This document shows, piece after piece, positions 15,860 through 33,036 of a DNA stretch of 52,837 nt. Below the pieces are notes generated by a model. It was given only the letters and a program-made list of their open reading frames with translations. It did no database searches and was not told where the DNA came from. This stretch comes from a virus, in the IMG/VR virus record IMGVR_UViG_3300044213_000047, positions 1 through 52,837 of that record; one strand, given 5' to 3'. A program made the translations under genes and the position numbers. Positions within the stretch are counted from its first letter, which is position 1. Every line of letters begins with the position of its first letter.

Positions 15860-15935
15860 TGGCTACCGTGGAGAGATTCGAACTCCCAGCCTTGTGTTTT
15901 GGAGACACCTGCGCTGCCAATTGCGCCACACGGTA
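15860..15935 (-). tRNA. tRNA-Trp(CCA)
   Basis: TACCGTG/CACGGTA acceptor, T loop TTCGAAT, anticodon loop CTCCAAA and an encoded CCA end give a regular tRNA-Trp. Confidence 0.88.
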
Positions 15936-15966
15936 ATAATTTTATTATTTTTCACTGAGATATATT

Positions 15967-16040
15967 TGGTGCCCATTTACGGATTTGAACTCCCACCAAG
16001 GGTTTTGGAGACCCGTATGCTGCCATTACACTATCGAGAT
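15967..16040 (-). pseudogene. decayed tRNA-Trp-like sequence
   Basis: The anticodon arm GGGT-CTCCAAA-ACCC, D arm (TAGTGTAATGG) and terminal CCA remain. Neither acceptor strand (ATCTCGA with AATGGGC) nor T stem pairs. GGGAGTTC is shared with the adjacent tRNA-Trp, so it looks like a degenerated duplicate. Confidence 0.6.
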
Positions 16041-16096
16041 ATTATTTCATTCAATACCCAACGCTTCAGCCAGTTGCAAACTTCTACAAAGGCAAA

Positions 16097-16306
16097 TTAT
16101 GCATAAGAGTCTTGAGGTACTGGACCAATGCTATCTGCTAATTGACCTTCAGCGTCATAAACCTTAATATGCTTACCCTGTTGGTTATGTAGGTTACGAC
16201 CGAATTCTAGTGCTTTTTCGAGCGAAGAAAGGAAGAAGTGAGTAACTTTCAACTCACCATTTTCCCAGAAGTGCATTGTTACTTTATGAGATTTAGGTAA
16301 TGACAT
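16097..16306 (-). CDS. hypothetical protein
   Basis: The 69-residue alpha/beta protein (VTMHFWENGELKVTHFFLSS, ALEFGRNLHNQQGKHIKVYD) begins directly next to the glycosyltransferase stop. It probably shares that transcript. No family was recognised. Confidence 0.7.
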   Translation of the reverse strand: MSLPKSHKVTMHFWENGELKVTHFFLSSLEKALEFGRNLHNQQGKHIKVYDAEGQLADSIGPVPQDSYA

Positions 16307-17359
16307 TTAATTCTCCTTGAATTGTTTAAACCAAATTCGTTTGGTCTTGTTTGTATAGTTCTTTAACGACAACTGATTTGTCTTCACATTCAGCTGAGGG
16401 AATCTATATGCAAACCTCAATCCCTCGATAATATCTTGTCCGTTGGTTGGGTCTCTAAGACCTAGTGTTTGCCATGGTATCTCTTTGCTACCAATGAGCG
16501 GAACACCCTGACTGATTACATCAGCACCAACGATGTTAAATGTTTCTGAGAAGTTACACTGTAACGCCAGATCCATTTGCCCACATAACTCCAAGAATTG
16601 TTCTCTTGGTGTCCATGTATGATTGATAAGAGTATGACCCTTATCGTGAAAATGCTGGAACAAACCTTTCAAGTTGCTAACGGCAGGTTGTCCCTGCATT
16701 TCAATTCGACCAGCATTAACGTGGAATCTGAGTTTCTTACCGATGTTGTCGGCAAACTCTACAGCTGCCAATGCTTGTACTAGGTGATTCTTCAGAGGTC
16801 TAACAGCACCGAAACACCCAATATCTATATTGTCCTTGTCTTTTTCGAGTTTCTTGCTCTTATACTCTTGCGGGTAATAGTTGGGTAAGTAGATAACCTT
16901 TTCGTTGGCTGTCTTGTCATCCCAATCGTTAAGATGTTGAAGAAAGAACTTCATTTCCCTTAACATGCGAGGAGCATTAACGCCAATGATTATATTCTTA
17001 AACTTTGAATACTCGCCGATCCAATCCATAGCCATACCTTCACCAGCCATAAATGGCATCTCTGAATGAAGACGAATAATCCACTTCACATTCGGGTGAA
17101 GTTTCTGTAGGATTAAAAACTTTTGAGGAACAACCCATAATGCTTCAACAATGACATGGGTTGGTTTGAAATTAGTAACTTCTCTGTCAATAGCATTGTT
17201 ATCTGGAACGACAACTAACTTTGATTCGATACCCATATCGTTGAGCATAACATACATGAAGTTTGCTGAGTTATACAGACCTGTGCTTAGACCGATGTGG
17301 TTATCACGATCAATGTTATAATCTTCTTTTCGTTTTAATATAAACAGTACACGAGACAT
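16307..17359 (-). CDS. GT-B glycosyltransferase (GT4-like)
   Basis: The 350-residue protein shows two Rossmann-like halves. The C-terminal half has IGCFGAVRPLKNHLVQALAA, a histidine-rich stretch, and CNFSETFNIVGADVISQG followed by VPLIGSKE, the E-x-F-x-x-x-x-A-x-x-x-G layout that binds the nucleotide sugar in GT4-type enzymes. No membrane segment is seen. Phage glycosyltransferases may modify DNA bases, virion proteins or host glycans, and nothing here chooses between these. A TATAAATA box (17398) about 40 nt upstream may be a late promoter. Confidence 0.82.
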   Translation of the reverse strand: MSRVLFILKRKEDYNIDRDNHIGLSTGLYNSANFMYVMLNDMGIESKLVVVPDNNAIDREVTNFKPTHVIVEALWVVPQKFLILQKLHPNVKWIIRLHSEMPFMAGEGMAMDWIGEYSKFKNIIIGVNAPRMLREMKFFLQHLNDWDDKTANEKVIYLPNYYPQEYKSKKLEKDKDNIDIGCFGAVRPLKNHLVQALAAVEFADNIGKKLRFHVNAGRIEMQGQPAVSNLKGLFQHFHDKGHTLINHTWTPREQFLELCGQMDLALQCNFSETFNIVGADVISQGVPLIGSKEIPWQTLGLRDPTNGQDIIEGLRFAYRFPQLNVKTNQLSLKNYTNKTKRIWFKQFKEN

Positions 17360-17397
17360 GTCGAATCAAAAAATGGTAAAGGAATTGTTATCTTGTA

Positions 17398-17405
17398 TTT
17401 ATAAC
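17398..17405 (-). promoter_or_regulatory. T4-like late promoter box
   Basis: TATAAATA on the minus strand matches the T4 late-promoter consensus and lies about 40 nt before the glycosyltransferase start. No -35 element is needed for this class. Confidence 0.5.
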
Positions 17406-17428
17406 ACCCCTGTATTTCCATTTTATTT

Positions 17429-17504
17429 TGGTGCCCACAACATGATTCGAACACGTGACCTACTGATTACTAATCAGTTGCTCTACCAACTGAGCTATGT
17501 GGGC
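17429..17504 (-). tRNA. tRNA-Thr(AGT)
   Basis: GCCCACA acceptor, loop TTAGTAA (anticodon AGT) on an ACTGA/TCAGT stem, and encoded CCA. An A34 anticodon for Thr is unusual in bacteria and would need deamination to read all ACN codons. Confidence 0.88.
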
Positions 17505-17510
17505 GATAAC

Positions 17511-17774
17511 TTAATTTTCTAAAACTGCGACGATATCTTCTTGTTTAATAATAACACGTTGAGCATCACCAACTTTAACAACTTGTGCTTTATTCCACAT
17601 CAAATATACTACGTCGCCTACTTTAACATCAGTAACTTCTGGTCCGATTGCTAATACTGTTCCAGATTTTGATTCACCAGTTCCCTGAGAATCAAGAATA
17701 ATACCAGAAGATGTTGTTTCTTCACGTTTATTTTCAGCAATCAAAACTTTGTCATGCAAGGGTTGAATGTTCAT
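17511..17774 (-). CDS. GroES-like co-chaperonin (gp31 analogue)
   Basis: With the ATG start (MNIQPLHDKVLIAENKREET) the protein has 87 residues. The GroES pattern is clear: N-terminal strand PLHDKVL, a mobile-loop region ETTSSGIILD, GTVLAIGPEVTDVKVGDVVY, and the end VIIKQEDIVAVL. It should cap host GroEL, as T4 gp31 does for capsid folding. Four codons upstream a GTG could extend it slightly, but it has no ribosome site. The gene lies inside the tRNA array. Confidence 0.92.
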   Translation of the reverse strand: MNIQPLHDKVLIAENKREETTSSGIILDSQGTGESKSGTVLAIGPEVTDVKVGDVVYLMWNKAQVVKVGDAQRVIIKQEDIVAVLEN

Positions 17775-17799
17775 ATTATCTTTCACTGTGTTAAAAAAT

Positions 17800-17874
17800 T
17801 GGTGGTGAAGGTTGGATTCGAGCCAACGACCTTTTCCGTATGAAGGAACTGCACTACCGCTGTGCTACATCACC
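17800..17874 (-). tRNA. tRNA-Met(CAT)
   Basis: GGTGATG/CTTCACC acceptor with one T:T mismatch, loop TTCATAC (CAT) on TTCC/GGAA, CCA encoded. The paired position 1 suggests an elongator or an Ile-type CAT tRNA. Confidence 0.82.
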
Positions 17875-18076
17875 ATTGTTGAAAGTACTGTCATCTGTTT
17901 AAGGAAATATAGTCTTGAATATAGCGTTCAAGCATTCATTCCCCTCTACCTTGGCAGATCTGCTCTTCGGTCCTCGTACCACCACAGTACATCGAGGGAC
18001 TCGGTAAAGGTCGGTATCACCCTGACAGTCAGGCTGCTGGTTAGGCAACTTCGCTCTCAGACTTTCAACAATGGTG
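17871..18076 (-). repeat. structured insert A with 16-bp inverted repeats
   Basis: CACCATTGTTGAAAGT (17871-17886) is perfectly inverted at 18061-18076. It encloses about 174 nt without a coding frame but with internal hairpins (CCTGACTGTCAGG, GCAGATCTGC). The base of the stem includes the CCA end of tRNA-Leu(TAG) and the first bases of tRNA-Met. See findings. Confidence 0.7.
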
Positions 18077-18157
18077 CGTCTGGTCAGACTCGAACTGACA
18101 CGCTTTTAGGGCACGAGCTTCTAAGACTCGCATGGCTACCAATTACATCACAGACGC
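18072..18157 (-). tRNA. tRNA-Leu(TAG)
   Basis: Perfect GCGTCTG/CAGACGC acceptor, loop CTTAGAA (TAG), a long variable arm as expected for Leu, T loop TTCGAGT and encoded CCA. Confidence 0.9.
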
Positions 18158-18300
18158 ATGGTGTATAATTTTACAACTCTCACATCGTAAAACCTAACGA
18201 CTCCACCTGCCGAATTACCGTAACGTGGCATTAACACGAACTTCATTGACGGAAGTTAATCGGATAGATGCTTTTTGCTCATGCCTATCATACGAGGAGA
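18158..18300 (-). other. non-coding spacer with hairpins
   Basis: This 143-nt spacer between an initiator-like tRNA and tRNA-Leu has no convincing gene. It holds hairpins AACTTC/GAAGTT and TTTTAC/GTAAAA. It may be a structured RNA like inserts A-C, but no inverted repeat joins its ends. Confidence 0.35.
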
Positions 18301-18375
18301 TGGTAGCGGGAGGTGGTAACGCTCCACCCTCGACATGGCTTATGAGACCATTCGGGTCGACTTGACCTTCCCGCA
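18301..18375 (-). tRNA. initiator-like tRNA-Met(CAT), atypical loops
   Basis: The cloverleaf closes with six acceptor pairs (GCGGGA/TCCCGC), a T:T mismatch at 1:72, A73 and encoded CCA, echoing the unpaired 1:72 of initiator tRNA. The anticodon loop CTCATAA sits on ATGGT/GCCAT. The D arm is GGTC/GACC with a 5-nt loop lacking GG, and the T arm is GGTGG/CCACC with loop AGCGTTA lacking TTC. It could be a specialised tRNA mimic or a decaying gene. Confidence 0.5.
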
Positions 18376-18380
18376 ACAGC

Positions 18381-18746
18381 TTATTGTTTAGACCACTCAG
18401 CAATCACCTTGCGATCTACACTTCTTTGTTCTCTTGTACCATATTTTGCTACCATGGCAACAATTCTTGGCACAATATACAACTGAAACATTCCATCATT
18501 GTTACGTTTCTTCTCAACATAACTGTATGGTTTACCAGCTAGATATGCTCTTGCTAATTCAGTGGCACGAGCTTCATTTCTAACATTCCACTTTCGATGA
18601 TTAGTCAAACTGTTTAATTTCCAGATAAGACTAGAATCAGTTCCTTTTGTATATTTTATCTGACCCTTGAGTTTGTTTTCTTCACGTTTGATGATAGATG
18701 GCTCAAGTGCCAAATGCTTTGCTTTAATTTTTAATTCGATACACAT
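18381..18746 (-). CDS. conserved phage protein, unknown function
   Basis: The start MCIELKIKAKHLALEPSIIK gives 121 residues. The block NHRKWNVRNEARATELARAY, followed by LAGKPYSYVEKKRN, is familiar from conserved proteins of T4-like and other phages. The basic, helical composition suggests nucleic-acid contact. It stands alone between tRNAs. Confidence 0.75.
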   Translation of the reverse strand: MCIELKIKAKHLALEPSIIKREENKLKGQIKYTKGTDSSLIWKLNSLTNHRKWNVRNEARATELARAYLAGKPYSYVEKKRNNDGMFQLYIVPRIVAMVAKYGTREQRSVDRKVIAEWSKQ

Positions 18747-18857
18747 TTTAATTTCCTTTGTTGTTAATTTTAGAAACATAATAAAAAACAAAAGAAACCT
18801 TACGGTGGACGAATCTAGGCTGACAATTTCTCCATGTCGCTTCTCCTTATAAAAAGT

Positions 18858-18934
18858 TGGTGCGTTAGACAGGAATCGAACCTGCTTCAGTCTGGTTTAG
18901 AATCAGCTACCCTTACCAAGTGGGCTACTAACGC
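18858..18934 (-). tRNA. tRNA with anticodon CTA (possible amber suppressor)
   Basis: GCGTTAG/CTAACGC acceptor, D stem GCCC/GGGT, T arm GCAGG-TTCGATT-CCTGT, A73 and CCA are regular. Counting from base 26, the anticodon arm is GCTGA-TTCTAAA-CCAGA, placing CTA at 34-36, which reads UAG. Only three central pairs hold the stem (27:43 and 31:39 mismatch). The neighbouring tRNA-Cys has the same mismatch pattern, which supports the register. Confidence 0.65.
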
Positions 18935-18948
18935 ATTTTATATATATC

Positions 18949-19023
18949 TGGCTCCAGAGGGTGGGATCGAACCACCGACCAATTGATTAACAGTCAACTG
19001 CACTACCGCTGTGCTACTCTGGA
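18949..19023 (-). tRNA. tRNA-Asn(GTT)
   Basis: TCCAGAG/CTCTGGA acceptor, loop CTGTTAA (GTT), T loop TTCGATC and encoded CCA. Confidence 0.92.
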
Positions 19024-19030
19024 ATAAAAC

Positions 19031-19105
19031 TGGCGACTCGTAGGAGAATCGAACTCCTGTGTCCTGCTAGACAGGCAGGCATAATAACCATTATATTAAC
19101 GAGCC
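19031..19105 (-). tRNA. tRNA-Asp(GTC)
   Basis: GGCTCGT/ACGAGTC acceptor, anticodon stem CCTGC/GCAGG with loop CTGTCTA (GTC), discriminator G and CCA. Confidence 0.92.
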
Positions 19106-19111
19106 AAATTT

Positions 19112-19202
19112 TGGTGGACAACAATGGGAATCTAACCCACTTCTTCCTCGTATGCTATTACGAAGTTTCAGACCAGCATCAGGTCATCACAACAGTAAGT
19201 CC
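19112..19202 (-). pseudogene. decayed tRNA-Ser-like sequence
   Basis: It has class II length with GGAC/GTCC at the acceptor base, T stem GTGGG/CCCAT (loop TTAGATT) and a terminal CCA. The anticodon region reads GGTCTGAAAC, one base short of a Ser TGA loop, and its stem no longer pairs. It is probably a degenerating tRNA-Ser; an intact tRNA-Ser(TGA) exists at 21078. Confidence 0.5.
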
Positions 19203-19212
19203 AAAATGTTTA

Positions 19213-19431
19213 TCAGTCAACCAAAAAACTAGAGTATTTTGGTTTGGTTATTTCTACCCATGCTTCAACACCTGGGTCGACCTCTTCAAACTGGTTTCCA
19301 TATGTAAACTCAAAACAACAATTTGCTGCTTGCCTGAAATTCTCGAAAACATACTTTTCGCCAGTTTTAGAATCCAACACCAATACATCATCAACACGGA
19401 GTTTGAATCTCTCAAAATGTTCATCAATCAT
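19213..19431 (-). CDS. hypothetical protein in tRNA array
   Basis: The start at MIDEHFERFKLRVDDVLVLD gives 72 residues with a compact alpha/beta pattern (SKTGEKYVFENFRQAANCCF, VEAWVEITKPKY). The 12-nt word taagtccaaaat flanks the gene on both sides (about 19196 and 19464), hinting at local duplication or insertion. Function unknown. Confidence 0.65.
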   Translation of the reverse strand: MIDEHFERFKLRVDDVLVLDSKTGEKYVFENFRQAANCCFEFTYGNQFEEVDPGVEAWVEITKPKYSSFLVD

Positions 19432-19476
19432 GATTGATCTCCTTGTTGCTATGTGTCTGATTATAAGTCCAAAATA

Positions 19477-19569
19477 TGGTGGAGCAACTTGGAGTCGAAC
19501 CAAGAATGTTTACCACGAGGGGACGGATTTACAGTCCGCCGATGCACACGCCATAGCATCAATTGCTCC
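19477..19569 (-). tRNA. tRNA-Tyr(GTA)
   Basis: Perfect GGAGCAA/TTGCTCC acceptor, loop CTGTAAA (GTA), long variable arm and encoded CCA. Confidence 0.93.
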
Positions 19570-19577
19570 GAAACTTT

Positions 19578-19776
19578 CCATTTGTTAGTGTTACTACGTT
19601 ATAGACAGCCTTCACCGTACTGCCGTTTGTTTTTAACGACCAAACTTATTTCCCAAGCGTCCAAGGGATCTTTGTTTGATAACAACTGTATACGTAGTCT
19701 ACTCGAGTTAACCACACATTGACAGATTCACTATCCTGCGATCACAGGAATTTTCCATAATAACACTAACAAATGG
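19578..19776 (-). repeat. structured insert B with 16-bp inverted repeats
   Basis: CCATTTGTTAGTGTTA (inverted at 19578-19593) and its partner at 19761-19776 are perfect complements. They enclose about 167 nt of non-coding sequence with hairpins such as CCTGTGATCGCAGG. The 5' arm starts with the CCA end of tRNA-Glu. Confidence 0.7.
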
Positions 19777-19848
19777 TACTGCGTACGAGAGTCGAACTCG
19801 TCTTCTCAGGTTGAAAACCTGATGTCCTAACCGATAGACGAACGCAGT
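19774..19848 (-). tRNA. tRNA-Glu(TTC)
   Basis: ACTGCGT/ACGCAGT acceptor, loop TTTTCAA (TTC) on TCAGG/CCTGA, and encoded CCA. Its 3' end begins insert B. Confidence 0.92.
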
Positions 19849-19866
19849 ATTAACTAACTAAACTCA

Positions 19867-19895
19867 ATTATACTTGATATTTAAATAAATGTCAA
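19867..19895 (-). promoter_or_regulatory. sigma70-like promoter inside tRNA array
   Basis: TTGACA (19890-19895), 17 bp, TATAAT (19867-19872). It starts transcription about 12 nt before tRNA-Glu, giving the distal half of the array a second promoter. Confidence 0.85.
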
Positions 19896-19907
19896 GCATT
19901 ATTTTTT

Positions 19908-19981
19908 TGGAGTAGGTGACAAGAATCGAACTTGCTTCCATGGGTTTGCAATCCAGTGCCCATCCAACTGGCTCCACCTAC
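19908..19981 (-). tRNA. tRNA-Cys(GCA)
   Basis: GTAGGTG/CACCTAC acceptor, anticodon loop TTGCAAA (GCA) with only three central stem pairs, T arm CAAG-TTCGATT-CTTG, CCA encoded. Confidence 0.88.
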
Positions 19982-19987
19982 ATAACT

Positions 19988-20065
19988 TGGTACCTCTGCT
20001 GAGATTCGAACTCAGAGAACTTCTCCTTTTGAGAGAGACGACTTTACCAATTTGTCCACAGAGGC
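19988..20065 (-). tRNA. tRNA with anticodon CAA (Leu codon, short variable loop)
   Basis: GCCTCTG/CAGAGGT acceptor, anticodon stem TCTCT/GGAGA with loop CTCAAAA (CAA), T arm CTGAG-TTCGAAT-CTCAG, and CCA. The variable region is only about 6 nt, unlike normal bacterial Leu tRNAs. Confidence 0.8.
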
Positions 20066-20070
20066 ATACT

Positions 20071-20145
20071 TGGCCTCGCCTGAAGGAATCGAACCCTCAT
20101 TCGTAGGGTAGAAACCTACTGTATTATCCATTATACTAAAGCGAG
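20071..20145 (-). tRNA. tRNA-Arg(TCT)
   Basis: CTCGCTT/AGGCGAG acceptor, GTAGG-TTTCTAC-CCTAC anticodon arm (TCT), discriminator G and CCA. Confidence 0.9.
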
Positions 20146-20150
20146 ATAAT

Positions 20151-20227
20151 TGGTGCGGAAGGCGAGACTCGAACTCGCAGAACTCAGATTTTAAGTCTGA
20201 TATGTATACCAATTCCATCACATCCGC
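20151..20227 (-). tRNA. tRNA-Leu(TAA), short variable loop
   Basis: GCGGATG/CTTCCGC acceptor with one T:T mismatch, TCAGA-CTTAAAA-TCTGA (TAA), D arm GATGGAATTGGTATACAT of Leu type. The variable loop is only about 5 nt where Leu tRNAs carry a long arm. Confidence 0.85.
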
Positions 20228-20233
20228 AAAATT

Positions 20234-20328
20234 TGGTACTCCCGACAGGATTCGAACCTGTATCATCCCCTAATCTGGAGGCATTGCCGAGGTATAAGCT
20301 CGGAGTTTTACCATTAAACTACAGGAGT
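20234..20328 (-). tRNA. tRNA-Ile(TAT)-anticodon tRNA with long variable arm
   Basis: ACTCCTG/CGGGAGT acceptor, CCGAG-CTTATAC-CTCGG anticodon arm (TAT), and a 25-nt variable region with a CCTC/GGGG stem before a normal T arm and CCA. Ile tRNAs normally have short variable loops, so charging identity is uncertain. Confidence 0.8.
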
Positions 20329-20398
20329 ATGGCTCCGTCATATTTTTTATTTTAACAGGGCGAGAACGGAAGCACCCCTGATTAGCTGCAGCGCAACT

Positions 20399-20488
20399 TG
20401 GTGGAGAGTGTGGGAGTCGAACCCACTGACCGTATTCCTACGATCTACAGTTTAGCAAACTGCTGCATTACCATCCTGCCCACTCTCC
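20399..20488 (-). tRNA. tRNA-Ser(GCT)
   Basis: GGAGAGT/ACTCTCC acceptor, CAGT-TTGCTAA-ACTG (GCT), long variable arm and CCA. The metallophosphatase stop codon is the next base upstream. Confidence 0.92.
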
Positions 20489-21055
20489 TTAATAGTTACC
20501 ATTCTTGAAACCCACAGTACCACCCTGCTCCTGAATCCTTTTTAGAACTTCTTCAAAAAGGATGGGTCTGAACTCAGTTTGCTCTACGCACACAGAGAAG
20601 TACCGTGGATCAATTATCTCACCCATTTTCTTATCATCATACATAACTCTGTTGCTATGTAAGTGACCATGAATGTTGCAACCGAATCGTCTTAGTTGAT
20701 CAGGATGAACAGGGATGTGAGAAAGAATTAAACCATTCATAACATGGTAAGCACGAATGTCTCTAAAGTATTTGGTATAATCCTCTAACTTAAAGATATC
20801 GTGGTTACCTTTGATTAAAACCTTATCACCATTCAGACGATGCATAATGTGTAACGATTTTCTGTTAATCACAACATCACCTAAGTGGTAAACCTTATCG
20901 TTGGGTTTAACTGTTTCGTTCCACAGTTTAACCATTGCTTCATCCATTTCTTCAACAGAATCCCAAGGACGAAGTTTCGTACCATCCGCACGCAAGAACT
21001 TAGTCACACCAGCGTGACCAAAGTGCGTATCGCTTACTAAGAATACACTCGGCAT
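20489..21055 (-). CDS. calcineurin-like metallophosphoesterase
   Basis: The ATG with GGAAAAGTT upstream gives 188 residues. The five metal-binding blocks are visible in order: DTHFGH, GDVV, GNHD, a His in ILSHIPVH, and GHLH. This matches small phosphoesterases of the YfcE/YvnB type acting on phosphodiesters or nucleotides. Similar enzymes near phage RNA-repair or tRNA genes may clear 2',3'-cyclic phosphates, but the substrate cannot be told here. Confidence 0.88.
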   Translation of the reverse strand: MPSVFLVSDTHFGHAGVTKFLRADGTKLRPWDSVEEMDEAMVKLWNETVKPNDKVYHLGDVVINRKSLHIMHRLNGDKVLIKGNHDIFKLEDYTKYFRDIRAYHVMNGLILSHIPVHPDQLRRFGCNIHGHLHSNRVMYDDKKMGEIIDPRYFSVCVEQTEFRPILFEEVLKRIQEQGGTVGFKNGNY

Positions 21056-21077
21056 AACTTTTCCTTTCATAAAAAAA

Positions 21078-21169
21078 TGGAGGAGACGGTGGGATTCGAA
21101 CCCACGGAGCTATCTCTAACCCGACAGTTTTCAAGACTGTTGCCATAAACCAGACTCGACCACGTCTCC
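21078..21169 (-). tRNA. tRNA-Ser(TGA)
   Basis: GGAGACG/CGTCTCC acceptor, ACAGT-CTTGAAA-ACTGT (TGA), long variable arm and CCA. Confidence 0.92.
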
Positions 21170-21175
21170 ATAACT

Positions 21176-21250
21176 TGGCACCCAATGAGAGAATCAAACT
21201 CCCAACCCAGCGTTCGTAGCACTGTGTGATATTCATTTCACCAATCGGGT
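21176..21250 (-). tRNA. tRNA-Arg(ACG)
   Basis: ACCCGAT/ATTGGGT acceptor, CAGTG-CTACGAA-CGCTG (ACG), T arm GGGAG-TTTGATT-CTCTC, and CCA. Confidence 0.9.
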
Positions 21251-21256
21251 ATAACT

Positions 21257-21331
21257 TGGTACCTTGTGACAGATTCGAACTGCCGACATCCCACTTGTAA
21301 GGAGGGAGCTCTACCACTGAGCTAACAAGGC
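21257..21331 (-). tRNA. tRNA-Val(TAC)
   Basis: GCCTTGT/ACAAGGT acceptor, loop CTTACAA (TAC), T arm GGCAG-TTCGAAT-CTGTC, and CCA. Confidence 0.9.
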
Positions 21332-21333
21332 AT

Positions 21334-21409
21334 TGGAGCGGGAGACGAGGTTCGAACTCGCGACATCTTGCTTGGCAAGCAAGCTCTCTACCAACTGAGA
21401 TACTCCCGC
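21334..21409 (-). tRNA. tRNA-Gly(GCC)
   Basis: GCGGGAG/CTCCCGC acceptor, CTTGC-TTGCCAA-GCAAG (GCC) and encoded CCA. Confidence 0.93.
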
Positions 21410-21418
21410 ATAAAAATT

Positions 21419-21493
21419 TGGTGGACCGTAAGAGAATCGAACTCTTACCTCTGACGTGCAAAGCCAGCGTGCTCCCATTATCACTAACAGCCC
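21419..21493 (-). tRNA. tRNA-Ala(TGC)
   Basis: GGGCTGT/ACGGTCC acceptor, CTGGC-TTTGCAC-GTCAG (TGC) and CCA. The G3:T70 pair recalls the Ala identity element. Confidence 0.9.
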
Positions 21494-21498
21494 AAAAC

Positions 21499-21572
21499 TG
21501 GTCTCGGTGGAAAGAATCGAACTTTCGACACATGGTCCCAAACCACGAATTTTACCACTAAACTACACCGAG
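21499..21572 (-). tRNA. tRNA-Pro(TGG)
   Basis: CTCGGTG/CACCGAG acceptor, CGTGG-TTTGGGA-CCATG (TGG) and CCA. Confidence 0.92.
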
Positions 21573-21578
21573 AAAAAC

Positions 21579-21652
21579 TGGTGCCCCACGACAGAATCGA
21601 ACTGCCGTATTCGGATTACAAAACCGACGTAATACCATTATACGAGTAGGGC
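21579..21652 (-). tRNA. tRNA-Thr(TGT)
   Basis: GCCCTAC/GTGGGGC acceptor, TCGG-based stem with loop TTTGTAA (TGT), and CCA. It is a second Thr tRNA beside the AGT one at 17429. Confidence 0.9.
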
Positions 21653-21659
21653 GAAAACT

Positions 21660-21734
21660 TGGTCCCTTAGGTAAGAATTGAACTTACTACCAATGCCTTA
21701 TCAAGACACTGCTCTACCAATGAGCTACTAAGGG
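21660..21734 (-). tRNA. tRNA-Ile(GAT)
   Basis: CCCTTAG/CTAAGGG acceptor, GTGTC-TTGATAA-GGCAT (GAT) and CCA. Confidence 0.9.
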
Positions 21735-21742
21735 ATAATATT

Positions 21743-21818
21743 TGGTGCAACCTGCAGGAATCGAACCTGCTTCATCGGATTTTCAATCCGCTGCTATGAC
21801 CACATCAGCTAAGGTTAC
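21743..21818 (-). tRNA. tRNA-Phe(GAA)
   Basis: GTAACCT/AGGTTGC acceptor, GCGGA-TTGAAAA-TCCGA (GAA) and CCA. Confidence 0.92.
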
Positions 21819-21820
21819 AT

Positions 21821-21896
21821 TGGGGTGAACTATGAGGATCGAACTCATACTATCTCGGTCACAGCGAGATGTGCAGACCACTACACTAAGAACACC
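21821..21896 (-). tRNA. tRNA-His(GTG)
   Basis: TCTCG-CTGTGAC-CGAGA anticodon arm (GTG). An extra 5' G pairs with C73, the tRNA-His hallmark. Two T:T mismatches lie in the acceptor. Confidence 0.88.
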
Positions 21897-21904
21897 ATCG
21901 AAAC

Positions 21905-21980
21905 TGGTACGGGTAGAGAGACTCGAACTCTCAACTTCCTGGTTAAAAGCCAGATACTCTACCAATTGAGTTATACCCGC
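21905..21980 (-). tRNA. tRNA-Lys(TTT)
   Basis: GCGGGTA/TACCCGT acceptor, loop CTTTTAA (TTT), T arm GAGAG-TTCGAGT-CTCTC, and CCA. Confidence 0.92.
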
Positions 21981-21984
21981 ATTA

Positions 21985-22207
21985 CCAAACAAAATCACAC
22001 TGGGATGATCAGCAGTAACCATCACCCGATGGCTAACCACGTATTCGTCATACGACTGACCGCATCTCACATTACGATCTAGATTACTCCAGCGTCCTCC
22101 TGATATTATCTCAAGGTTTCTTGATATCATGGCGCACCCATCTCCGTCGAGACAGCTAATGCCCATGTACCCTACTGGATCTAGCAACCCAATGCAATTT
22201 TGTTTGG
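21985..22207 (-). repeat. structured insert C with 11-bp inverted repeats
   Basis: CCAAACAAAAT (minus strand, starting with the CCA of tRNA-Gln at 22197-22207) is inverted at 21985-21995, just before tRNA-Lys. About 200 nt of non-coding sequence between the arms contains short hairpins. Confidence 0.6.
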
Positions 22208-22280
22208 CACCCCCTGATGGATTCGAACCACCGCATGACGGAATCAAAATCCGTTGCCTTACCAGCTTGGCGAAGAGGGT
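22205..22280 (-). tRNA. tRNA-Gln(TTG)
   Basis: ACCCTCT/AGGGGGT acceptor, CGGA-TTTTGAT-TCCG (TTG), discriminator G and CCA. It is the first tRNA downstream of the promoter at 22338. Confidence 0.92.
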
Positions 22281-22337: not shown

Positions 22338-22366
22338 AGTATACGCTTAATTAGCATTTACGTCAA
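22338..22366 (-). promoter_or_regulatory. sigma70-like promoter of tRNA array
   Basis: TTGACG (22361-22366), 17 bp, TATACT (22338-22343). Transcription would start about 50 nt before tRNA-Gln. Confidence 0.8.
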
Positions 22367-22411
22367 GCTCTTTTTTAATAACCATACAAACTGTAAGGTC
22401 ATAAAACAAAA

Positions 22412-22437
22412 AACCCCAAGACTTTCATCTTGGGGTT
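22412..22437 (-). terminator. intrinsic terminator, part of a two-state switch
   Basis: AACCCCAAGA and TCTTGGGGTT form a 10-bp stem with a 6-nt loop followed by TTTT on the minus strand. Its 5' arm can instead pair with a 13-nt segment at 22469-22481. Confidence 0.85.
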
Positions 22438-22481
22438 CTGTAAAATATACTTGTTGTTTTCAGTCTACTTTACAGAACCCC
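22432..22481 (-). promoter_or_regulatory. antiterminator hairpin (attenuator-like)
   Basis: GGGGTTCTGTAAA in the RNA (from 22481-22469) is perfectly complementary to TTTACAGAACCCC (22444-22432), 13 bp with a 24-nt loop. It is mutually exclusive with the terminator at 22412. The 5' arm covers the last codons of the 37-codon frame at 22465, so ribosome position could decide the outcome. Confidence 0.6.
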
Positions 22482-22578
22482 CAGTGTAATCAATCGCTGT
22501 AAACTCTGGGCGTGAGCATGTCCAGCCACTATTAAGTGGTAAATGCTTCTGCATTCTGGATATGTTCGTCAAGTTCAT
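22465..22578 (-). CDS. 37-residue peptide, possibly leaderless leader peptide
   Basis: The frame starts MNLTNISRMQKHLPLNSGWT and ends in TAG. The ATG lies about where transcription from the promoter at 22586 should begin, so no ribosome site exists and translation would be leaderless. It is the only frame between a promoter and a terminator. It may act as a leader peptide for the attenuator, as an independent small protein, or not be translated at all. Confidence 0.5.
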   Translation of the reverse strand: MNLTNISRMQKHLPLNSGWTCSRPEFTAIDYTGGSVK

Positions 22579-22585
22579 AGTAGAA

Positions 22586-22614
22586 ATTATACTTCCGTTT
22601 TGATTAAATGTCAA
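22586..22614 (-). promoter_or_regulatory. sigma70-like promoter
   Basis: TTGACA (22609-22614), 17 bp, TATAAT (22586-22591). It lies directly before the 37-codon frame and attenuator and is the second of three tandem promoters ahead of the tRNAs. Confidence 0.87.
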
Positions 22615-22628
22615 GTAGTTTATTAAAT

Positions 22629-22649
22629 AACCCTACAATTTGTAAGGTT
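22629..22649 (-). terminator. hairpin between tandem promoters
   Basis: AACCTTAC and GTAGGGTT form an 8-bp stem (one G:T pair) with a 5-nt loop followed by TTATTT. It would cut short RNA from the promoter at 22675. Confidence 0.45.
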
Positions 22650-22674: not shown

Positions 22675-22703
22675 ATTATACACGCAAAATGACTAAATGT
22701 CAA
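22675..22703 (-). promoter_or_regulatory. sigma70-like promoter
   Basis: TTGACA (22698-22703), 17 bp, TATAAT (22675-22680), just after the Fe-S carrier gene. A CTAAATA box overlaps its expected start region (22664-22670). Confidence 0.85.
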
Positions 22704-22720
22704 ATTATTTTCAATTATTT

Positions 22721-23023
22721 TTATGCTGCGAAGGAAGATCCGCAACCACAAGTTGCAGTTGCGTTTGGATTGGAAACTTTGAAAGAAGCACCCATCAACT
22801 CTTCAACGTAGTCAACAGTGGCACCTTGTAGATATTGCATACTCATAGCATCAACAAGAACAGAACCGAGTTCAAAATCATCTTCTTCTTTGTCACCAAA
22901 GTTAAATGCATAAGAAAACCCTGAACAACCACCACCCTGAACCGAGATTCTCAAGTGCGTTTCTTGGTTTTCCAATAACAAATCGGAAATTTTATTTTGT
23001 GCGCTTTCTGTTACTGTTATCAT
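22721..23023 (-). CDS. A-type iron-sulfur carrier (IscA/ErpA-like)
   Basis: The 100-residue protein matches the HesB/IscA/ErpA family in length and motifs: GGGCSGFSY with the first Cys and CGCGSSF with the C-terminal pair. These three cysteines bind the [Fe-S] cluster handed to client enzymes. In this genome, clients could include the radical SAM enzyme, the host, or ribonucleotide reductase-related proteins. It overlaps the oxygenase gene by 4 nt. Confidence 0.92.
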   Translation of the reverse strand: MITVTESAQNKISDLLLENQETHLRISVQGGGCSGFSYAFNFGDKEEDDFELGSVLVDAMSMQYLQGATVDYVEELMGASFKVSNPNATATCGCGSSFAA

Positions 23024-31032: not shown

Positions 31033-33036
31033 TTACTTCGATGTGGCTCTATATGTTCCATCCCAGTCAGCTGGTTTGCCTTCTTGCATACGTTCAACCA
31101 TGTTATCATAGTATTGCGATAGTTCTGGAGATTCAGCTTTCAGAGAATCAACCATTGCAATAGCAGCATCCCAATTTCCAGAGTAATAGTTTTCTAACCA
31201 AATAGGATGTAACGAATAAACTATTGCAGGTGTAAAAATTTTCACTCCAATCTTTTTACCTTTTACCGCAATACAATCAAGTTCTGCTACAGGATACTGA
31301 TCTTGAACATATCGTGCAGTTTGTTGTCCAAGAATGATTCGGACGCCATACGATTTACTCTGTCCTTCAAGTCTGGATGCAAGATTGACAGAATCCCCAA
31401 GACAAGTATAATCGAAACGCTGGTCGCTACCCATATTCCCAACAACAACGGTACCAGTATTAATCCCAAGACCCATGCCGAAAGGTGGCACACCCTCTTT
31501 AGTAATTTCTGAATTAAATTCATCCAAACTCTCCATCATTTGTAAAGCTGTTTTCAAAGCCATCTTAGCGTGTTCAGGTTCATCGAGTGGAGCATTCCAA
31601 AATGCCATCTGAGCATCACCGATATACTTATCTAACGTGCCATTGTTTTCTATAATTTTTGATGTCATCGCTGTCATGTAGCGATTCATAATTTGAGTTA
31701 AACCTTGAACATCTTCCCCATAGTGTTCTGATATTGAAGTAAACCCTCTAACATCTGTGAACATAATGGAAAGTTCTCTTGACTCACCACCGAGTTTAAG
31801 TAATTCAGGTTGTCGCTGTAACTTTTCGACCAGAGCGGGAGACAAGTAAGTACCGAACTGTTTTTTGATTTGAAGTTTTTGGCGCAGTTCAACAAGGAAT
31901 TTGACAATGTATCCATGGAAGCTGCAGATTCCAATGGTAAGTATCGGGAACACAGCATCAAGTAGATACTGGTGTCGTACAAACAATTCCATACCACCAT
32001 AATAGGCAACGAATCCCAATAAGATCGCGAAGATGTATCCATGAGTAAACCTCGTTAGGTAAAGTGAAAGTAACACTGCTACAATCATAAATCCTAACTC
32101 AGCGATTAAAGACCAATCTGGTCTACTGATGTTAGTGCCACTAATTACTGTGTCTAGAACCTCAGCTTGTATATAATGAGGAAATTGGGCACCTCCTGCT
32201 GTGGCGACAGGATTGTTAAGACCTTTTGCGGTAAGACCGACGATGACGATTTTTCCACCGAAGTCTTTTGGTAAATTGATGGCAGAATATTCTGCTGGTC
32301 TGCTAGTAGGGTCAACCCAAATTCTCCCGAGTTCATCGGTTTCGATTTTTCCAAGTTGAGCAATTCTGACTGCTTGGATTGCGTTGTCGTTGACTTTAAC
32401 TTGGAAACTTGGTTGTCCTGCGGCAACTCTGAGAGTTTCAAGGCTGATGCTGGGGTATAAGTTTCCATTTGCGTTGACGACCATTGGTATTCTTCTGGTG
32501 ACGCCATCGACTTCTGGCAGAGTGTTAACAACACCAATACCAGCAGCACTATTATTGAATATGGTTGGATATATCGTATCATACTTCACACCTGTATCTT
32601 TCGCATTTCCTCCGATTACTGAAACACCTGGACGGAATGGAATTACATCGGTAGTAACTTTACCTACTTCTGCTAGTTGCGGTAAAATTACTGGATTATT
32701 TTTTAATGTAGCAGCCAGCTGGCTGTCTTGATGAAACCTATCGGAATCAGGCATATAAACATTAAACACAACAAGACCAGCGTTACGTTTAAGAATATCT
32801 TCAATAATCTTTGAGTAGTCTCCTCTAGGGAACGGAAACTGTCCTTTTTGCTTAATAGTGGCATCGTCTATATTTACAACTGCCACATGTTCTGAGACAG
32901 TTGCTTCCTTTGATGTTATTAGTTGATCGAAATAACGAAGTCTGACAGACTCAACGAATGTCGGGTCTGCCAGTCGAATTACAATCATAAGCACCAATGT
33001 AACCAGTGCCATCCATGGCGATAAAAGTTTTTTCAT
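31033..33036 (-). CDS. CHASE2-domain membrane nucleotide cyclase
   Basis: The 667-residue protein has one N-terminal TM helix (about 8-22), a periplasmic CHASE2-type sensor (about 40-305: VAVVNIDDATIKQKGQFPFP, RGDYSKIIEDILKRNAGLVV), three more TM helices (about 308-380) and a class III cyclase domain (about 395-610). Catalytic residues are complete: D428 in FTDVRGFT, K470 and D474 in DKYIGDA, T544 in the DYTCLGDS block, N551 and R555 in NLASR. This pattern favours adenylate cyclase. It ends the curli operon and its ATG overlaps the preceding gene (ATGA). A phage-borne full-length sensor cyclase is highly unusual. It may change host cAMP or sense the envelope state. Confidence 0.93.
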   Translation of the reverse strand: MKKLLSPWMALVTLVLMIVIRLADPTFVESVRLRYFDQLITSKEATVSEHVAVVNIDDATIKQKGQFPFPRGDYSKIIEDILKRNAGLVVFNVYMPDSDRFHQDSQLAATLKNNPVILPQLAEVGKVTTDVIPFRPGVSVIGGNAKDTGVKYDTIYPTIFNNSAAGIGVVNTLPEVDGVTRRIPMVVNANGNLYPSISLETLRVAAGQPSFQVKVNDNAIQAVRIAQLGKIETDELGRIWVDPTSRPAEYSAINLPKDFGGKIVIVGLTAKGLNNPVATAGGAQFPHYIQAEVLDTVISGTNISRPDWSLIAELGFMIVAVLLSLYLTRFTHGYIFAILLGFVAYYGGMELFVRHQYLLDAVFPILTIGICSFHGYIVKFLVELRQKLQIKKQFGTYLSPALVEKLQRQPELLKLGGESRELSIMFTDVRGFTSISEHYGEDVQGLTQIMNRYMTAMTSKIIENNGTLDKYIGDAQMAFWNAPLDEPEHAKMALKTALQMMESLDEFNSEITKEGVPPFGMGLGINTGTVVVGNMGSDQRFDYTCLGDSVNLASRLEGQSKSYGVRIILGQQTARYVQDQYPVAELDCIAVKGKKIGVKIFTPAIVYSLHPIWLENYYSGNWDAAIAMVDSLKAESPELSQYYDNMVERMQEGKPADWDGTYRATSK

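Follow-up and report, generated by a model that had tools for sequence, protein, structure and literature searches.

The known attenuators respond to one amino acid or to a few, and to our knowledge no attenuator leader selected for all 20 has been described; none was found in the literature searched, where most subscription journals were missing. The phage locus described here shares with the E. coli trp and his attenuators a short leader frame on which the position of the ribosome would pick between an antiterminator and an intrinsic terminator, a stop codon inside the segment to be masked, a candidate pause hairpin, and the predicted rule that a stall means read-through (PMC1183508). The differences lie in the leader and in what follows it: trp and his leaders repeat the codon of one amino acid and precede biosynthesis genes, whereas the phage leader has 19 or 20 different amino acids and precedes a tRNA array. 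The phage leaders also appear to be mostly leaderless or nearly so, unlike trp and his. Two other systems are similar in part. As in the rRNA operon leaders that carry boxA, a boxA-like site with the E. coli core stands shortly before stable RNA genes, but here a translated-leader attenuator would lie upstream of it, the products are phage tRNAs, and the role of Nus factors is putative. As in T4, a tRNA cluster headed by tRNA-Gln occurs in a T4-like phage; the T4 cluster, however, has eight tRNAs against 27 in the window (the whole 52.8-kb stretch of DNA analysed, an IMG/VR virus record), and no leader frame with at least 18 different amino acids was found in the 900 nt before the first T4 tRNA.

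We consider it likely that the locus works as a ribosome-mediated transcription attenuator and checks the complete set of tRNAs, the array being transcribed when any tRNA is short; both the mechanism and the sign of the response are what we infer. The short leader frame, intrinsic terminator and competing antiterminator pairing by which an attenuator is recognized are all found by sequence and by folding. The leader is not of the single-amino-acid type of trp and his, as 20 different amino acids occur in 37 codons, the scarce ones once. Set against known attenuators of the same structural plan, its novelty would be that it samples all 20 amino acids and that the genes under its control are phage tRNA genes. 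The features are collected in Table 1; all parts of the leader, attenuator and array lie on the minus strand of the window. A first-pass annotation had placed the promoter, the ATG, the 37-codon frame, segments A and B, the terminator and the T-run, and all these positions were confirmed, as were its statements that A lies in the last codons of the frame, that A and B form a perfect 13-bp inverted repeat, and that B runs into a 10-bp terminator stem.

Table 1. Positions of the features of the leader, attenuator and tRNA array in the window
Feature	Position	Strand	Remarks
IscA/ErpA-like gene (PF01521)	22721-23023		Upstream of the leader element
Leader promoter	22586-22614	-	TTGACA, 17 nt, TATAAT; 12/12 consensus matches
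Leader frame MNLTNISRMQKHLPLNSGWTCSRPEFTAIDYTGGSVK	22465-22578	-	37 codons plus TAG (22467-22465); ATG at 22578
Small in-frame hairpin	22526-22539	-	CCACU/AGUGG; pair probability ~1
P2 pairing	22477-22513	-	G run of A with upstream GCCCAG; 22513-22503 with 22487-22477
Segment A (GGGGTTCTGTAAA)	22469-22481	-	Last codons and stop of the frame
Segment B (TTTACAGAACCCC)	22432-22444	-	Pairs with A; longer stem in the fold, 22476-22437
Terminator hairpin (B + C) and T-run	22408-22436	-	Stem 22436-22427 with 22422-22413; T-run 22413-22408
Promoter-like site, terminator-array gap	22338-22366	-	TTGACG, 17 nt, TATACT
boxA-like sequence TCTTTAACAA	22293-22302	-	Before the first tRNA
tRNA array	15860-22280	-	ARAGORN: 26 tRNAs, tRNA-Gln to tRNA-Trp
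tRNA-Cys of the array	19911-19981	-	Rfam; brings the total to 27 tRNAs
tRNA with anticodon CTA	18858-18934		ARAGORN call tRNA-Pyl

A GenBank search returned no close relatives of the window. For one of its proteins, the nearest cultured relatives are Methylophilales phage Melnitz and Pelagibacter phage HTVC008M. The same element occurs on five long contigs (162-174 kb) with a gene for a T4-type Gp23 capsid protein, and the relatives that carry the element, where tested, are T4-like phages. Relatives of the element were gathered from viral contigs by DNA patterns of segments A and B, plus neighbours of the IscA-like gene; the DNA patterns involve no selection for peptide composition. In this way 64 distinct peptides were obtained regardless of composition, and nine more, from a scan requiring at least 18 different residues, brought the set to 73, so that unbiased counts refer to the 64. 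The element thus has 73 distinct relatives in viral contigs, and leader frame, A:B and terminator are kept together in dozens of them. In each of the 59 loci whose sequence extends far enough, the element is followed by a tRNA array, whose first gene is nearly always tRNA-Gln(TTG). Among GenBank phages, searched by DNA and by peptide, no relatives of the element were found; bacterial genome contigs gave two matches, neither with a comparable leader frame, which were taken as chance. A search of 22400-22620 against Rfam gave no match up to E = 1, so the leader was not assigned to any known Rfam cis-regulatory RNA. In one decayed copy (L006, 5280-5640) the terminator is gone, as is the part of the array that begins with tRNA-Gln, and the remnant peptide is without Arg; this copy provides a natural control, in a single case.

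The leader peptide is 36-46 aa long across relatives, and its frame is kept with in-frame indels across the 73 distinct versions; a non-coding small RNA gene, suspected from the strong fold, was rejected on this ground. Conservation of the frame, together with its selected composition, supports the view that it is translated. The window's peptide contains each of the 20 amino acids, a property absent from the earlier reading of the sequence. All 20 are present in 47 of the 64 peptides of the unbiased set, the other 17 having 19, and in 53 of the full 73 (window included), with 19 in the remaining 20; of these, 14 lack Val, 4 lack Cys, 1 lacks Trp and 1 lacks Arg. By comparison, only 0.17-0.7% of similar-length stretches from 870 open frames of these phages hold all 20. 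Shuffling within columns with the conserved core kept (5000 trials) gave a mean of 3.9 and a maximum of 11 complete peptides out of 41, against 31 observed, and for peptides less than 65% alike the observed 12 of 14 compares with a mean of 1.25. When evolution from an all-20 ancestor was simulated on the inferred tree, using each column's own composition and a divergence nearly as observed, 7.7 of the 64 peptides were complete on average and never more than 20, against the observed 47. The excess over both nulls arises because scarce residues shift position yet stay present once. For example, Cys is spread over six columns yet single in 38/41 peptides, and Tyr is likewise spread over six columns yet single in 41/41. 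Selection would therefore seem to act on the presence of residues and not on their position, which is hard to explain by protein function.

This bears on a more ordinary interpretation, namely that the frame encodes a small phage protein with its own promoter and terminator, that A:B stabilises the end of its mRNA, and that the array is a separate unit with its own promoter. The conserved core of the peptide would suit such a protein, but no usual constraint on a protein accounts for a composition of all 20 amino acids or for single residues that move, and we regard this interpretation as unlikely.

The place at which the set is completed also fits the proposed attenuator. In 44 of the 47 all-20 peptides, the set of 20 is complete ahead of the last six codons, and in most of those Asp, seventh from the end, completes it. 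The only Val of the window's leader is codon 36, the second last, where a stall would not signal. Val is missing from the leaders of L098, L103, L105, L119, L133, L135, L154, L180, L181, L189, L195, L198, L200 and L202. A correspondence between Val-less leaders and arrays without tRNA-Val was looked for and not seen, as the arrays of L105, L135, L180 and L181 have tRNA-Val.

With the split boxes of Ser, Leu, Arg and Ile taken separately, there are 24 codon families. All 24 occur in the window frame and in 27 of 43 distinct frames, with 23 in the other 16, as against 24 families in 5.5% of frames given random synonymous codons at the usage of these phages; these numbers are descriptive only, because the frames are related by descent. 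In arrays with at least 19 tRNAs, nearly every sense tRNA is matched by a codon in its own leader. The unmatched ones are for the most part Leu-CAA, the codon of which (TTG) Leu-TAA should read as well, together with Val or Cys where the leader is without them.

The leader RNA folds more stably than expected (z = -6.3; 0/200 shuffles as stable). In a comparison of 44 relatives, A and B are paired in 98.8% of cells, and the stem is kept in all relatives with energies of -16 to -26 kcal/mol. Such a long and constant stem could be mainly an RNA-processing or stability element of the array transcript (e.g., an RNase III site), attenuation being incidental. We find this very improbable, as it leaves unexplained the leader frame, its 20 amino acids, and the stop codon that lies inside A in every relative. 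The covariation score of A:B plus the small in-frame hairpin lies above all 500 shuffles and all slid controls; the double changes are mostly in the small hairpin, and much of A:B is invariant. The small hairpin, which shows compensatory changes in relatives, is a candidate polymerase pause hairpin. The terminator hairpin and T-run are present in all 44 relatives folded, with a stem whose sequence varies widely and always folds. Segment A is a GGGTTTTGG-type sequence, and relatives preserve it even when their reading frame or the encoded amino acid differs. The C-terminal variants GGLASR, GGFGKLM and EGFGN, for instance, change the residues and retain segment A as RNA, which again speaks against an ordinary small protein.

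The first-pass annotation held that A:B and B:C exclude each other. This did not stand: the two compete only for the CCCC of B, at the terminator base, and when the full-length RNA is folded without a ribosome, the complete terminator and a shortened A:B stem form together with a probability near 1, because the G run of A can also pair with the upstream GCCCAG. We defined the closing energy as the free energy gained as the last G run of the terminator emerges and calculated it for the 44 relatives by folding with a masked ribosome footprint. It is about -13.5 kcal/mol (sd 0.3) with the ribosome at the stop, -1.6 kcal/mol with the ribosome edge 21-30 nt before the stop (a mid-frame stall), and -4 to -5 kcal/mol with an early ribosome or none; the switch occurs as the A site moves from codon -9 to codon -7 relative to the stop. 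In other words, the terminator is predicted at full strength when the ribosome is on the last codons or the stop, in agreement with the earlier proposal that translation covering A allows termination, and a stall at an earlier codon is predicted to cost it about 8-12 kcal/mol. With the ribosome mid-frame, shuffles of the sequence upstream of B kept the terminator strong and reproduced the effect of A in 0/300 cases in each of three relatives, window included. Synonymous recoding mostly leaves the terminator strong, the observed value being matched by 0.5-4.5% of recodings in four of five leaders and 14% in the fifth; this weakening of the effect of A under recoding is a further point against the small-protein interpretation.

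Equilibrium folding gives a narrower picture. Strong competition by A:B is predicted chiefly when the ribosome stalls in the second half of the frame, and with early stalls or no ribosome the terminator is still favoured; read-through is predicted mainly for second-half stalls because P2 otherwise occupies the G run of A. The earlier claim that stalling favours A:B agrees with the weakened terminator, the prediction for early stalls being ambiguous. The claim that read-through follows from lack of translation agrees with the much reduced closing energy, but not with the equilibrium fold. A classical three-state attenuator that senses only second-half codons (~GWTCSRPEF in the window), in which an early stall forms P2 (1:2) and the terminator closes, would match the sensitivity window seen in the equilibrium folding of most relatives examined in detail, and its layout is that of trp with a 1:2 hairpin (PMC1183508). 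We nevertheless think it rather unlikely, as the presence constraint applies equally to Cys, Val and Asn, which in many relatives occur only within the first ten codons, early stalls already cut the closing energy by 8-9 kcal/mol, and P2 is only partly conserved among relatives. For the attenuator that tests the whole tRNA set, the sensing of early codons would depend on the order of folding and on the reduced closing energy being decisive.

Transcription of the leader would start very close to its ATG, which in the window begins 7 nt past the -10 box. Among distinct versions in relatives, the distance from the -10 box to the start codon is 6-7 nt in 38 and 10 nt in 11, and this short spacing suggests that initiation is leaderless or nearly so; six relatives (L110, L133, L135, L172, L177 and L188) instead have an AAGGA-type site ahead of the ATG. 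Further upstream, at 22675-22703, is a second full-consensus promoter. A transcript from it would carry the leader ATG at an internal position, ~90 nt downstream of its 5' end and with no obvious Shine-Dalgarno site, and its encounter with the attenuator would be different. A short inverted repeat, ACCTTACA..TGTA.GGTTATT, is found at 22626-22649 and 22377-22399, in each case 10-15 nt upstream of the -35 box at two successive promoters, and also before tandem promoters in L003, L005, L010 and L011; it may act as a weak terminator or be an element associated with promoters.

How far the array depends on the switch varies between loci. A scan limited to sigma-70-type sites found a promoter-like site between the terminator and the first tRNA in 34/59 loci and none in 25/59. 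In these 25 the array seems to be accessible only via the terminator and to need read-through. In the window the array does follow the switch, as had been noted, but it also has the promoter-like site past the terminator, so the switch would govern only part of its transcription. The window and the 34 loci are what an ordinary small protein beside an independent array would lead one to expect, and the other 25 are not. Shortly ahead of the first tRNA, 57/59 loci have a boxA-like TCTTTAA[AC]AA. Its core also occurs in a sequence present ~7 times per E. coli genome, which we take to be the rrn leader boxA; the site suggests that host Nus-dependent antitermination may be used for the tRNA genes.

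The preferred mechanism can be outlined as follows. The design of the leader peptide would be such that each amino acid, and almost every split-box tRNA family, is sampled one or more times. RNA polymerase would start at or just before the ATG and probably pause at the small in-frame hairpin while a ribosome loads. If all charged tRNAs are present, the ribosome would keep pace, reach the last six or seven codons and the stop, and cover A; B would then be free, the terminator would close at full strength, and the array would not be transcribed from the leader promoter. If any tRNA is short, the ribosome would lag before A, and A would pair with B, taking the CCC at the terminator base, so that the polymerase would read into the tRNA array, where the boxA-like site may recruit rRNA-type antitermination.

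That tRNA supply is sensed, as the first-pass annotation had suggested, is very probable because the peptide samples all 20 amino acids. In a published model of attenuation, few regulatory codons (or a single one) give low sensitivity (PMC1183508), and the sensor should therefore answer to severe tRNA loss. Host defences cleave tRNAs, and phage tRNAs are known or proposed to counter this (PMC10264068, PMC11555353, PMC12409363); we speculate that such cleavage is one possible cause of the loss sensed. The leader may even be a universal tRNA integrity sensor, in which one all-20 peptide tests every tRNA family and any loss (e.g., through a tRNA-cleaving host defence) turns on a replacement set, an idea that is possible but that we hold only tentatively. 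If the switch works as read here, expression of a large phage tRNA array would follow demand, setting in once decoding fails at whichever codon; phage tRNAs, the role of which is debated, would be linked to a trigger that can be measured, for example nutrient collapse or tRNA-cleaving defences; and the leader would be a compact natural reporter of overall tRNA supply.

The 27 tRNAs of the window's array cover all 20 amino acids. The tRNA with anticodon CTA is probably an amber suppressor. A link between it and the TAG stop of the leader was considered and dropped, as among the four arrays that have such a tRNA, a TAG leader precedes the window's alone. Amid the tRNA genes, at 17511-17786, is a gene for a GroES-like protein (Cpn10, PF00166). 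Elsewhere in the window, 31033-33036 encodes a 667-aa protein whose relatives in phages Melnitz and HTVC008M are annotated as adenylate/guanylate cyclase.
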